Shown here one piece after another: positions 46,225 through 62,061 of a DNA stretch of 64,000 bases. A program made the position numbers and the translations under genes. Within the stretch, counting starts at the first letter, position 1. Every line of letters starts with the position of its first letter. The DNA comes from Sphingorhabdus wooponensis. Its GTDB lineage: Bacteria; Pseudomonadota; Alphaproteobacteria; Sphingomonadales; Sphingomonadaceae. Under the pieces are notes generated by a model. It was not told where the DNA came from. It saw only the letters and a program-made list of their open reading frames with translations, and searched no databases. The stretch lies in assembly GCF_003933235.1 (NCBI RefSeq), contig NZ_RWJI01000001.1, forward strand, positions 1,494,001-1,558,000, in the 5' to 3' direction.

Positions 46225-47589
46225 CTAAAATAGGCGCGCGCCTTGGCGGCGGAGTTCTTGTTGCACGTCGCTAATGTTGACCTCAGAAAAATCGCGATCT
46301 GATTTGACTGCCAACGCCGCGGCTACGCCAGCGCCTTGCCCAGCAACGGCGCAACACATCATGTTGCGGACCGCAGCATGGCTGACCTTATCGCCGCCGA
46401 TCACACGGCCAGCGGTAATCAAATGCCGGACATTTTTGGGTAACATCGACCGGTAAGGCAGATGGAAATAGCGCCCTGTCGTCGGCAATATAAGATAGCC
46501 ATAGCCGTCGATAAATTCCGGAAATATGCCGATGCTATCGTCAAAGCGGCCTTGTTCCATCACATCATCGGCGGTCATATTATACACCGCATCAATCTTG
46601 CGCGTATCGCGAATGCCCAGCGTCATACCAAAGTTGCGCAGCTTAGCATCTTCGCAGCCGGGCATAAACGCTTGCAACGCTGCTATGGCGTGCATCGCCT
46701 GCTTACGCCCCGCCATTTCCCCATGTGTCAGGGCATCGGGGTCTGTGCCGTCCAGATATAAATGACACATGTTGAGATAGGTCAAATCCCCCTGATCCGA
46801 CACTGTGCCCCAAGTGCCAGCCATTGTCTTAACGCTATCGGGTATCAGGCCCGCCTCTAACGCCTTTTGAAAGGGCTTGCGCAAAAAGGGCGAGAACATC
46901 GCATCCTCTTTGCCGCTGGTAATCACTTCCCACTCCCCGCCGACGGCCCAGTCGCCGTAGGTTTGCGGGTCCGCCTTTACGGCGTCAATAAACCGCGTCT
47001 TGTTCACGCCGCACATGGAAAACATGACCGAGACCGACATCATTTCGTCCACGGGGTGCATATGCGTAGGCGCGCCTGCCCGGTGGGCAATGTCGGCATC
47101 CCCTGTTGCGTCAATCACCCGTTTGGCAAGAATCGCTTCACGGCCCGCCTTGCTTTCGACAATGACGCCGCGGATGATATTCCCATCCATGATGGGCGCC
47201 ACACATAGTCGGTGCAGCATGGGAATAACGCCCGCTTCCTCGACAAGCGTATCTGCGACAAATTTGAAGGCTTCGGCATCGAGACTATGGCTGATTGATT
47301 GCGGTTCCGGCATGGCCGCGCCCATCAATTTGGCGCGGTCTTCAAATTCACGCCCGATGCCTTCGCTGTCGATAGTGGCTGGGTGCCGATACCATGCGAA
47401 ACCCTCCACCCCGACCTGCGTGATATTTCCGCCGAAACAGCCATAGCGTTCGAGCAAGGTTGTTTCGACACCCGCCCGCGCCGATGCCAGTGCTGCGGCA
47501 AGGCCACCAGGGCCAGAGCCGACGACGAGAACGTCGGTGTGGCGGATCACATCAATATGGCGGGCTGGCTCAACTATCTTTTCTATCAT
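46225..47589 (-). CDS. FAD-dependent oxidoreductase (FAD_oxidored family)
   Basis: A 454-residue flavoprotein. The N-terminal dinucleotide fold is [21 protein letters not shown] followed by [13 protein letters not shown], and [15 protein letters not shown] is a second FAD contact. This pattern is the pfam12831-type group; its reactions are mostly unknown. It overlaps the choline dehydrogenase gene as ATGA, so it is the third cistron of the bet operon and may act on a choline-derived or osmolyte-derived compound (inference). Confidence 0.85.
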
Positions 47590-49253
47590 CTTTGGGCATC
47601 ATTCCAATTTGGCGCGACGTAAAATGGCGCATTCGACGGGGCGAGCATAGGCTTGCCAAGAATATGATCGGCCGCCTTTTCCCCGATCATGATCGTTGGC
47701 GCATTCAGGTTGCCCGTGGTGATGGTCGGCATCACGCCGCTATCCACCACGCGCAGCCCTTGGACACCGATGACACGCAATTCGGGATCGACCACGGCCA
47801 TCGGGTCGCGTGGGCTGCCCATCTTGCATGTGCAACTGGGGTGCAGCGCGCTTTCGACATGTTCGGCAATGAAGGCGTCAATCTGCGCATCAGTGACGCA
47901 GTCTGCGCCAGGTTGAATCTCACGCCCGCGAAAGGGGGCAAAGGCGGGTTGTTGGAAAATCTCCCGCGTCAGCCGCACACAGGCCCGCATGTCTGTCCAA
48001 TCGTCGGGATGGCTCATATAGTTGAACAAGATTTTGGGCTTGTCGTGCGGATCCGCGCTTTTGAGCGTCACGGTGCCCCGGCTTTTGGAACGCATGGGGC
48101 CGACATGGGCCTGAAAACCATGTTCGGATGCCAGTGACGATCCGTCATAATTGATCGCCATCGGAAAGAAATGATATTGAATATCGGGATATTTGATACC
48201 GGCACGGCTGCGGATAAAGCCACAGCTTTCAAACTGGTTTGACGCCCCCAACCCCGACCGACCCAATAGCCATTGTGCACCGACCATCGCTTTGCCAAGC
48301 AGATTTGCCTTGCCGTACAGAGTGATGGGTTGGGTGCAGGCCATTTGGAAATAAAATTCCATATGATCCTGCAGGTTCGCGCCCACACCGGGGCGGTCGG
48401 CGCGCACTTCTATGCCATGCGCTTTTAACTCCTCTGCGGGACCAATGCCGGAAAGCTTGAGCAGCTGCACCGAATTGATGGGCCCGCCCGACAATATGAC
48501 TTCGCGCCCCGCGTGCACCTGATGCATCTGCCCTGCGCGTTCATACTCCACCCCAATGGCGCGCGTGCCGTCAAAAAGGATGCGCGTCACAAGCGCCTTT
48601 TCTATGACTTTCAGATTGGGTCGCTTGCGCGCTTCGTACAGATAGGCCTTCGCCGCCGAGCAGCGCGTGCCATCCCGCACTGTCATATCCATCCGGCCAA
48701 AGCCTTCTTGGGCATAGCCATTATAATCTTCGGTCAGGCTATAGCCCGCTTGCTGCGCGGCATCGAGCCAGGCCTGATGCAGTGGATTGTCGAGCGGGCC
48801 ATAGCTGGTCGACAAGGGTCCATCGCCGCCGCGATAGGTGTCCCCGCCTTCGGCCCGACCTTCGGCGCGTTTGAAATAAGGCAGTACATCGGCATAGCCC
48901 CATCCAGTTGCGCCTTCCTCTTCTTTCCAATGTTCAAAATCGAGCGCGTTGCCGCGCACATAGACAAGGCCGTTGATGGAGGATGATCCGCCCAGCCCCT
49001 TGCCGCGTGGGCAATTGAGGCGTCGGTTGTTCAAATGCGGCTCCGGCTCGCTTTCATAGCCCCAATTCCACCTTTTGGTGTTCATGGGGTAGGCAAGCGC
49101 GGCGGGCATCTGAATCAAGACCGAGCGGTCACTGCCGCCATATTCCAGCAATATGACCTGATGCGCACCATCGGCGCTCAACCGGTCCGCCAACACGCAC
49201 CCAGCCGACCCTGCGCCAACGATGATATAATCTGCGGCCTCAATAGGGGGCAT
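47586..49253 (-). CDS. betA: Choline dehydrogenase (GMC oxidoreductase)
   Basis: Flavin enzyme oxidising choline to betaine aldehyde; 555 residues. GMC motifs are [18 protein letters not shown] at the start, [38 protein letters not shown] and the C-terminal [13 protein letters not shown] with the catalytic His, then [23 protein letters not shown] 49253 has GGAA eight bases upstream and overlaps the end of the betI-betB fusion gene by 14 bases. Assignment to choline rather than another alcohol rests on this operon context. Confidence 0.9.
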
Positions 49254-51237
49254 CGATTGGTTCCATTGCGACATAGACGCTCTTGAGCTGGGTATAATGT
49301 TCAATCGCCGCCTTGCCATTTTCACGGCCAAGACCCGACTGCTTATTTCCACCAAATGGCATTTCAATCGGGGTGATATTATAGGTGTTTATCCAACATG
49401 TGCCTGCCTCCAACGCCGCGATAACACGATGCGCGCGCGTCAGATTGTTGGTGAAAATACCGGCCGCCAAACCAAATTCGGTGTCATTCGCCCGCGCGAC
49501 AACCTCTACCTCATCCTCGAAATCGAGCACCGCCATGACGGGGCCAAAAATCTCTTCGCGCACAATAGCCATGTCATCGGTGCAGTGCGTGAAGATAGTC
49601 GGCTCGACAAAGGCCCCTTGGGCCATATTGCCATGCACCGCCCGCTTTCCGCCTGTGAGCAAGTTGGCACCCTGCTGCTGACCCAGCGCGATATAGCCCA
49701 AGACCTTTTCCATATGCGCTTGCGAAATCAATGCGCCCATTTGGGTGGCGGGATCGAGCGGATCGCCCATCAATATCGCCTGCGTCCGCGCCTTCAATTT
49801 TGCCAGAAACGCATCACGGACATTTTTATGCACAAAAACGCGGGTCCCGTTGGTGCACACTTCACCCGCCGAATAAAAATTGGCGAGCAATGCGCCCGAT
49901 ACCGCTTCATCCAAATCGGCATCTTCAAAGATGATTAACGCCGATTTTCCGCCCAGTTCAAAGGTAACATATTTCAGCGTGCCTGCCGCGTCGACCATCA
50001 CCTTTTTGCCCGTGCCCACTTCGCCGGTCAGCGATACTTTGGCGATGCCGGGATGAAGGCTCAGCAATCGGCCGGTCTCGGCTTTGCCTTGTACGACCTG
50101 AAACAAACCATCGGGAAGGCCCGCCTCAAGATAGACCTTCTCAAGCTCTATTGCGGTGAGTGGCGTCAGCTCGGCGGGCTTAAAAATCATGGCATTGCCG
50201 CACGCCAAAGCGGGTGCAGATTTCCAACACGCAATTTGTATGGGATAATTCCACGCGCCAATACCCGCAACGACACCCAAGGGCTCCCGCCGGCTGTAGC
50301 CGAATGCACTGCTGCCCAGATCATGATGTTCACCGGCAATGGTGCGCGCAAGCCCTGCATAATATTCGATGCAATCCGCACCAGATAGAATATCGACCGC
50401 GCTGGTTTCTTGAATGGGCTTGCCGGTATCTTGCGTTTCAAGCCGGGCAAGAATGTCATTGCGTTCCACCAACAAAGCAGCAGCGCGATGCAGGATACGG
50501 CCCCGTTCTACACCCGGCGTTTTCGCCCATAGCTTTTGGGCATGGGCCGCGCGGGCGACAGCCTTGTCGACCTCTGCCTGTCCGTCGATGCGAATAGTCG
50601 CAAGCAATTGCCCTGTGGCCGGATTGATTGTGTCAAAATGCGATGCAAGCGGCGCAGGTCGCGTGGTAGACACGTTGCGCGCAATGAAATCAAAAATAAG
50701 GTCGCGCGCCAACCCGTTCTGCAGCGCCACGCCGCCATTCATCGCCGCACGCAGCCAGACACCGTCAATCATGGCCGCTATGGTATGCGCCATTGGCAAT
50801 ATGTCACGCGTGTCGACCAGCTGTCGCAGATCAAATTTCAAATTAGACAACATGCGCTGTTGATGCGCCCTTTGCACGCGGGCCAGTTGCGGTACATGCA
50901 ATGCCTGTCCCCAGAATGACAGCCAAACCCGCGCCATTTCCTCGGAGAAATCATTATGTCCCAAATGCGCGTCCACCAGCGCCTCTATGCGCGCGCGGGG
51001 TCCGGCAGCGAGCCGGAGGCGCGCCGTTGCCTGATGGTTCAACTGCCGCACGACCGTGCGGAAGGCAGCTTCAAGCAAGGCTTCTTTGCTCGTGAAATAA
51101 TGCACTATCAGCGCCGCCGAGATATTAGCATGACGCGCAACTTTATTGAATGTGAATTCAACTATTCCATATTCAGCCAAAACAGCAATTGCCGAAGCAA
51201 TAATATGTTGGCGACGATCAGTTTTAACTTGAGGCAT
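49240..51237 (-). CDS. BetI-BetB fusion: TetR-type repressor joined to betaine aldehyde dehydrogenase
   Basis: One uninterrupted frame of 665 codons. Residues 1-190 are a complete BetI: HTH region [21 protein letters not shown], then [10 protein letters not shown] and [13 protein letters not shown]. After about ten linker residues ([10 protein letters not shown]) the chain passes into BetB at [10 protein letters not shown], lacking only the first twenty or so residues of normal BetB. BetB catalytic residues are present: Glu in FELGGKSAL (about 427) and Cys in [11 protein letters not shown] (about 461), plus EIFGPVMAV. No ATG or ribosome site is seen at the junction. A BetI-like palindrome lies upstream. 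The product would both oxidise betaine aldehyde and bind DNA. Confidence 0.9.
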
Positions 51238-51254: not shown

Positions 51255-51272
51255 ATTGAACGCTTATTCAAT
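51255..51272. promoter_or_regulatory. Putative BetI operator
   Basis: Inverted repeat ATTGAA-N6-TTCAAT located 18 bases upstream of the fusion gene start. The half sites resemble the BetI boxes described for choline genes (ATTGAAC...GTTCAAT form, from memory). Its place in the promoter region of the gene whose product has the BetI DNA-binding domain suggests autoregulation. Confidence 0.6.
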
Positions 51273-51300: not shown

Positions 51301-51879
51301 TTATGACACGCGCTGTTCGGTAGTCATCAAACCCTTTGCCAGCGCCGCGAGCGCCAGCGCGATGATCAAGTGATAGGCATGCCAAGATACCGCCTCATCC
51401 ATCCACGTCGCACGGCGGATGAACAATGTATTGGCAAGCATCACGGCACAGGCAACAGGCACAAGCCATGAAGGCTGCGATAGGCTCGGACGCACAATCG
51501 AAGCCGCACATGCAAGCATAAGGGCCAGCAAGAATAAGGGACCCAGAAAGGGAGGCGCGAACCAGAAGATTGCCAACGCAACGGTGAGTATAAAGGCAAT
51601 TATTACTATCCCGTTTCGGCCCTTCGGCGGGAACAGATAATGCGCCAAAATCGCGAAGGCCCCGGCAAGGCCCAAATATTGCGACGCGCCGGAATGCAAC
51701 GCGGCCAACGCATCCTGCAAGCCGCCGCCAAAGCGCACCACGCCAATACTGGCCGCCACCCCGAAACACGCCATGGCAAATGCAGGCAAAACCTTAATGT
51801 TTCGCCAAAGCGCATGCCCTGCAAATAAGGTGACGAGCACGATGGCCGCATCCGATAATGCGTAATGGGCAGGCATCAT
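51301..51879 (-). CDS. Small polytopic membrane protein, function unknown
   Basis: A 192-residue protein with about six hydrophobic helices (for example AIVLVTLFAGHALW, YLGLAGAFAILAHYLF, GIVIIAFILTVALAIFWF, LVPVACAVMLANTLFI) and a His-containing final helix (AYHLIIALALAALAKG). I do not recognise the family. It overlaps the upstream sterol-desaturase-family gene as ATGA, so the two are co-translated and probably act together. It ends 64 bases before the betI-betB start and on the same strand. Confidence 0.7.
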   Translation of the reverse strand: MMPAHYALSDAAIVLVTLFAGHALWRNIKVLPAFAMACFGVAASIGVVRFGGGLQDALAALHSGASQYLGLAGAFAILAHYLFPPKGRNGIVIIAFILTVALAIFWFAPPFLGPLFLLALMLACAASIVRPSLSQPSWLVPVACAVMLANTLFIRRATWMDEAVSWHAYHLIIALALAALAKGLMTTEQRVS

Positions 51880-61464: not shown

Positions 61465-62061
61465 TCAAATAAAACTGTCCAGCCATTTTTCGGCCAACGC
61501 CTCCGCCTCATCGACGCTGAAAGGTGCATTGCCCAGGCTGAGTTCAAGCCACAGGCCATCAACCAAGGCGGTCAACGCCACGGCGGCCAATCGGGCATCT
61601 GCGGGTGCATTGGGACAGGCCCGAATGAGGCGTTCCATATCCTGCCGATTTTCGGCGTAGATTTCGTCATGAATTGCACCAATTGCGGGTACTGTGCGCG
61701 ACAGGCTCCAAAACGCCAACCATGTCGCGAGCAGCTCCGGATCAGCAATCGGCGCACGGAAACTTGCGGTTACAAAGGCCAGCAACCGACCGCGCGGGTT
61801 ATCTGCCGGAACCGCATCAACCGCAGCATGTAACGCCGCCGCAACACGCGCACCGGTTGCGCGATAGGTTGCGGCAACCAGCGCATCAATGCCGTCAAAA
61901 TAATGCCGCAGCAAACCTGCCGAAACCCCCGCCTCAAGGCAAATAGCACGCACCGATGTCCCATGCGCGCCACGCGTGGACAAGCACCGCGCCGTGGCCG
62001 CAATTAACGCGTCGCGGCGTGTATCCGCACTTTCGCGGGTGAAGACTTGTCGCAATTGCAT
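61465..62061 (-). CDS. TetR-family regulator, BetI type
   Basis: A 198-residue repressor. HTH is TSVRAICLEAGVSAGLLRHYF; the C-terminal ligand domain has LLATWLAFWSLSRTVP and LVDGLWLELSLG, features shared with BetI, including the tryptophans. ATG 62061 leaves the palindrome at 62068-62085 outside the gene; the in-frame ATG at 62076 would put it inside. Divergent from a Rieske oxygenase, whose transcription it presumably controls. Confidence 0.88.
   Translation of the reverse strand: MQLRQVFTRESADTRRDALIAATARCLSTRGAHGTSVRAICLEAGVSAGLLRHYFDGIDALVAATYRATGARVAAALHAAVDAVPADNPRGRLLAFVTASFRAPIADPELLATWLAFWSLSRTVPAIGAIHDEIYAENRQDMERLIRACPNAPADARLAAVALTALVDGLWLELSLGNAPFSVDEAEALAEKWLDSFI

Follow-up and report, generated by a model that had tools for sequence, protein, structure and literature searches.

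The betIB-betA locus and its gene products

In the 64,000-nucleotide stretch of DNA analysed here (the window), the gene found immediately before betA, designated betIB, consists of one open frame of 665 codons with an ATG start and zero internal stops, in which the domains of the repressor BetI are followed by those of the betaine aldehyde dehydrogenase BetB (Table 1). Enzyme and regulator, the combination that characterizes trigger enzymes, are therefore encoded at the gene level as one polypeptide. The original prediction, made by inspection of the DNA, was that a full-length BetI runs in frame into a BetB deprived only of its first twenty or so residues, with the catalytic Glu and Cys and the DNA-binding helix kept and no ATG at the junction, and these points were borne out. 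Pfam placed TetR_N at residues 12–58, a BetI-type TetR_C_6 domain at 80–187 and Aldedh at 200–654, in that order, and PF00440 and PF13977 both scored above their cutoffs, as expected for a BetI repressor. The BetI half exceeded the cutoff of the NCBIfam BetI model NF001978 (163.9 bits against 118) and stayed below that of TIGR03384 (173.8 against 201.3), a cutoff passed by three further fusions tested (L043, L091 and L148). The betaine-aldehyde dehydrogenase model NF009725 matched with 774.6 bits (cutoff 593), aligning betIB residues 199–665 to model positions 22–488 of 488, and TIGR01804 fell 6 bits short (662.9 against 668.6). Because the NF009725 alignment begins at position 22, about 21 N-terminal residues of BetB are gone, profile positions 1–21 being absent from betIB, and a linker of about 10 residues stands in their place.

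Table 1. Position of genes, domains, codons and predicted operators in the window
Feature	Position	Strand	Basis or remark
betA, choline dehydrogenase	47586..49253	-	family matches
betIB fusion gene, 665 aa + stop	49240..51237	-	open frame; full-length homologous fusions in relatives
BetB half, residues 200–665, minus first ~21 residues	49243..50640	-	NF009725; fold matches
Cys461 codon	49855..49857	-	invariant, 42 fusions
Glu427 codon	49957..49959	-	invariant, 42 fusions
Linker, ~residues 190–199, replaces BetB residues 1 to ~21	50641..50670	-	dN/dS, pLDDT
BetI half, residues 1–189 (TetR_N + BetI-type C-terminal domain)	50671..51237	-	Pfam, NCBIfam
TetR_N helix-turn-helix domain, residues 12–58	51064..51204	-	Pfam
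Operator 2 (probable), within BetI coding region	51145..51162	.	110 bp from operator 1; TTGAAYNNNNRTTCAA at 51146–51161
Operator 1 (predicted), ATTGAACGCTTATTCAAT	51255..51272	.	18–35 bp upstream of betIB ATG

An alignment of 42 fusions revealed that Glu427, Cys461, Asn330 and Lys353 were invariant, of which we take Glu427 to be the general base and Cys461 the nucleophile of the BetB half, with Asn330 and Lys353 presumably having catalytic roles too. The helix-turn-helix of the BetI half was also well conserved among fusions. Pooled over 14 ungapped relatives, dN/dS was 0.081 in the BetI half and 0.037 in the BetB half, compared with 0.364 in the linker, so that by these ratios both halves are under purifying selection and the linker far less. 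Across fusions the linker ranged from roughly 10 to 40 residues and varied widely in sequence too. The AlphaFold2 model of betIB presented two folded domains (mean pLDDT 82, pTM 0.68), the low-confidence parts being the linker, with pLDDT under 50 at residues 192–195, and the dehydrogenase stretches 302–317 and 612–651. The top fold matches of the BetB half were solved betaine aldehyde dehydrogenase structures, with 3r31 as the best sequence match. Between residues 183 and 202 the sole ATG, GTG or TTG codon was a GTG at 189, found at this place only in L006 and L118 besides the window (L059) among the fused loci compared.

The genes betIB and betA share 14 nt, the ATG of betA (49251–49253) lying within the 3' end of betIB. 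After betA, a gene for an FAD-dependent oxidoreductase (PF12831; 46225–47589, reverse strand), whose start overlaps the end of betA by 4 nt, is a possible further choline or betaine enzyme. Directly upstream of betIB and in the same direction, an ORF of 192 aa (51301–51879, reverse strand) had zero Pfam matches at E ≤ 1e-5. At 61528–62022 of the window (G000:C1:1555528-1556022) lies a gene for a further TetR-type regulator, which shares 25% identity with the BetI half.

Distribution and origin of the fusion

Among 45 genomes of the genus, that of the window included, 10 carried a full-length open fusion (88–100% identity), G023 a fusion with one stop inside, and G015 and G017 pieces at contig ends; the remaining 32 had no match better than E 3.6e-118, which is where other dehydrogenases score. 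In the family (397 genomes), the 31 matches at E ≤ 1e-120 comprised 17 full-length fusions (57–100% identity), three BetB-only relatives (67–78%; G108, G123 and G441) and 11 other dehydrogenases (43–47%). The domain order foreseen by the original prediction thus recurs in related sphingomonads. The opposite outcome, relatives in which betI and betB are always separate, was contradicted by the 20 family genomes with a BetB at least 57% identical, 17 being fused, three lacking a joined BetI and none having an intervening stop. With the BetI half as query, further fusions were obtained from the order (G614, G640 and G585; 396 genomes), the class (G1006 and G1005; 385 genomes) and the phylum (G1110; 398 genomes), their fused state being read from the loci. 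Further long frames were seen around weaker BetI-like matches in G1079:C9, G454 and G304.

A scan of 84,980 species retrieved 392 relatives, and among the best 80 of these, a sampling enriched for fusions because the search profile was built from fused BetI halves, BetB was in frame with BetI in 74. Five of the remaining six reached a contig edge before BetB and one (L191) was apparently frameshifted. None of the 74 fused loci had a stop between the two halves, 70 had a betA match, L121 and L184 were broken further on, and L154 and L160 were cut off inside BetB by a contig edge. Records without a metagenome-assembled genome (MAG) label included Sphingorhabdus rigui, Chakrabartia godavariana, Stakelama flava, Ancylobacter mangrovi, four Aureimonas, and plasmids of Komagataeibacter saccharivorans; the fusion was also found in Novosphingobium and in MAGs of Caulobacter, Acetobacteraceae, Steroidobacteraceae and other Gammaproteobacteria. 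Pantoea, E. coli and other records matched in two pieces, corresponding to separately annotated betI and betB. Since the same frame recurs in dozens of independent assemblies, isolates included, a sequencing or assembly error joining two genes through an indel at the junction, the artefact feared at the outset, has a negligible probability and was excluded.

In a tree of the BetI domain (90 rows), one branch parted 60 fused from 30 separate rows (SH-aLRT 97), and in a tree of BetB (95 rows) the 60 fused rows formed one clade together with L044, L047 and L048 (SH-aLRT 97), loci that encode BetB without the BetI half and without the usual N-terminus. Forcing these three outside the fused clade was rejected (p-AU 6.7e-5), and support for the clade was lower (90) in a 124-row BetB tree under a simpler model. 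These trees are quick searches without bootstrap in which long branches were flagged, L222 foremost, and in the BetI tree the tool also flagged long branches joining each other. Given a single clade in both domain trees, the fusion seems to have arisen once and several independent fusions are not needed; a single fusion followed by three losses of the repressor would be the simplest reading. As the fusion is now present in Alpha- and Gammaproteobacteria, it has probably passed between the two classes. By eye, the N-terminal stretch of BetB is still in the linker of eleven fusions (L091, L148, L157, L174, L176, L181, L186, L187, L190, L198 and L222) and is lost in the sphingomonad and most gammaproteobacterial ones. 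At another locus, L017, BetB has its full N-terminus and the DNA upstream of 1398 resembles, by eye, an out-of-frame remnant of the BetI N-terminus.

Predicted operators of fused and separate loci

As with known BetI regulators, a palindromic box lies at the bet gene of the window, though the core of this 18-bp palindrome is 4 bp longer than that of the usual 14-bp BetI box, the form of the published type (PMC12442346). The spacing was scanned with ATTGAAY-core-RTTCAAT, allowing cores of 0–10 bp over 220 bp upstream of 81 fused and 37 separate loci, with a half-site picked after inspecting the sequences, so that only the spacing was open. Among fused loci, a 4-bp core was the sole best in 58 and tied with 0 in 19, a 0-bp core was the sole best in two, and two presented other ties including 4; for separate loci, in contrast, the 0-bp core was the sole best in 24, tied with 4 in 12 (one a three-way tie), and 4 was best alone in one. 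The core is thus mostly 4 bp in fused and mostly 0 bp in separate loci, and the E. coli box scored equally with both. At a threshold of at least 12 of the 14 half-site bases and with a core of 0 or 4, boxes were present within 400 bp in 77 of the 81 fused and 36 of the 37 separate loci, compared with 0.4% and 0.9% of the respective two-base-block shuffles. Because separate loci are also boxed and the E. coli box ties, the re-spacing is a trend between groups rather than an absolute divide. With threshold 11 and cores of 0–10, single-base shuffles reached the threshold often (174/1620 for fused and 195/740 for separate loci), and sites with 11 points are therefore weaker evidence. The best boxes of the BetB-only loci L044, L047 and L048 scored 9, 9 and 10 of 14, and by this measure the three lineages without BetI are also without the palindrome.

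In the 2.18-Mb genome, the 16-bp inner pattern TTGAAYNNNNRTTCAA has just two occurrences, both at betIB, and its reversed control has none. Allowing up to one mismatch, the 18-mer matched twice in the window, where 0.04 matches would be expected; one mismatch gave two extra sites in the genome, one where a frame ends (L228) and one within long frames that overlap each other (L229), and two mismatches gave 27 further sites against three for the reversed control. No promoter-like site overlapping operator 1 was found. Control of the one BCCT transporter of the genome, located on another contig (G000:C2:21829-23286), was considered and discarded, the best box in its 4.5-kb locus scoring 10–11 of 14, far under the bet box.

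The second, in-gene box of the window was placed 110–111 bp from the first in 14 near relatives and was not found at the same threshold in L014, L038 and L131, which belong to that branch. Its six codons ranked sixth lowest in synonymous change among 362 windows of codons: V26 and E27 were synonymously invariant and T29 and F30 hardly varied (0.14), the mean being 0.431, and the spacer codon F28 varied (0.54), as did N31 (0.53), although the last base of the latter belongs to the right half-site. The lowest window comprised codons 660–665, as expected from the overlap with betA. The third lowest, codons 548–553 (about 49579–49596), has no obvious reason.

At least two boxes within 400 bp upstream were detected in 32 of the 81 fused loci versus one of the 37 separate ones, and paired boxes, as predicted sites, are a feature of fused loci. 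Outside this group of 14 relatives, the second box is located upstream, in many cases in the direction of a divergent gene; by crude ORF calls, the nearest long upstream ORF was divergent in 38 of 56 loci, and eight hand-picked divergent ORFs corresponded to seven OpuAC-type betaine/choline ABC transporter genes and one TonB receptor. No helical phasing of the box spacing was observed for periods of 9.5 to 12 (40 distinct distances, 56 loci; lowest p 0.13), and this spacing gives no support to DNA looping through helical phasing. In the branch of L039, L040, L067, L068 and L197, the second box was 221–231 bp from the first. The divergent gene of L197 encodes a TonB-dependent receptor, which suggests that outer-membrane uptake may be part of the regulon there.

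A probable self-repressing enzyme

The fusion is a real, old and widespread variant of BetI and BetB and of self-repressing enzymes. From its domains, conservation and boxes, we consider it probable that betIB acts as a single protein with two tasks, repressing its own operon and catalysing the second step of the pathway from choline to glycine betaine. In the absence of choline, the BetI half would bind the palindrome and repress betIB-betA; choline, by analogy with free BetI, which senses it (PMC12442346), would bind the BetI half and release it from DNA, and the BetB half would then oxidise betaine aldehyde. Because each enzyme subunit bears one repressor domain, repressor and enzyme levels would move one to one, and this fixed dose would build in a negative feedback shutting the operon once choline is spent. 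Such dose coupling is the most economical benefit, and the fusion makes the reason for tying the dose of a repressor to that of its enzyme directly testable.

It is unlikely, although compatible with several observations, that betIB is a true trigger enzyme like PutA, as the original prediction had it, in which binding of betaine aldehyde or NAD(H) at the dehydrogenase site, or the state of assembly, would alter how the BetI half binds DNA and thereby put expression under the control of flux. The single polypeptide has been kept since one fusion, the operator spacing has shifted, and tethering is a prerequisite of such coupling; the linker, however, being variable and relaxed, is a mild argument against rigid coupling by this route, and the choline sensing of free BetI makes the coupling unnecessary.

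Betaine aldehyde dehydrogenases are tetramers, and an enzyme tetramer with two BetI dimers might grip two operators as a bivalent repressor and loop the DNA. The excess of paired boxes at fused loci and the in-gene box of near relatives, with its partly conserved synonymous codons, point in this direction, but the distances show no helical phasing and control of a second promoter is a plainer explanation at loci with divergent transporter genes, an explanation inapplicable to the window, where the upstream neighbour runs in the same direction; on balance, bivalent looping seems quite improbable. A combination of both ideas, in which oligomerisation of the dehydrogenase would make a dimeric TetR protein bivalent on re-spaced, paired 18-bp operators and occupancy by aldehyde or NAD would tune repression, is offered as a speculative proposal of low probability; if true, the pathway would sense not only choline but also its own toxic aldehyde intermediate.

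It is very unlikely that the chain functions as two independent proteins, made by internal initiation of translation or by proteolysis. The three lineages whose BetB lacks BetI and the first ~20 residues indicate that the BetB half can probably stand alone, and several fusions (L174, L176 and L198, for example) have an ATG in the linker; but an internal BetB start there was rejected, since the start codon is not conserved among fused loci, and no stop separates the halves. Decay of the BetI half as a mere passenger is highly improbable: this half does have roughly double the dN/dS of the BetB half and was lost in three lineages, yet the ratio is low, the helix-turn-helix is conserved, and so is the operator, which is absent where BetI is absent. 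Over its history, the fusion lost the enzyme N-terminus in most branches and re-spaced the operator, and three lineages dropped repressor and operator together.

Few natural fusions of a repressor with the enzyme that it controls are known, and this one unites the large TetR family with a dehydrogenase. The betI-betB-betA genes of E. coli K-12 have the same three functions, adjacent and in the same order, with a palindrome upstream, but BetI and BetB are two proteins there. PutA, whose DNA-binding fold is a ribbon-helix-helix and whose redox switching is known, differs from betIB in this fold and in its enzyme. In logic, PutA of Salmonella is nevertheless the nearest system, a proline dehydrogenase repressing put, that is, a catabolic enzyme repressing its own operon as one polypeptide (PMC6978683). 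The group II biotin protein ligases (BirA) are enzymes with a DNA-binding domain at the N-terminus and control the genes of their pathway and of transport, but they contain neither a TetR domain nor a dehydrogenase (PMC4016012, abstract). In Ruegeria pomeroyi, an alphaproteobacterium with a two-BetI system, BetI likewise acts through a palindrome, ATTGACG*CGTCAAT for BetI1, to control betB, but the proteins are separate; the text of that study contains neither ‘fused’ nor ‘bifunctional’, and ‘fusion’ appears for PCR only (PMC12442346). Searches of an open library found no title or abstract that describes a BetI-BetB fusion, most subscription papers being outside this scope. The word ‘fused’ occurs 18 times in a survey of bet and other gene clusters of phototrophs; the passages covered (12 of 14 places) deal with genes for methyltransferases and with a fused osmolyte and not with betI-betB (PMC7824335). 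In the record of a K. saccharivorans plasmid (L222:5037-7067; NZ_CP023037.1), the whole fusion is annotated as a single CDS, betB, betaine-aldehyde dehydrogenase, with the repressor half absent from the product name, so that BetI would be scored as missing there.
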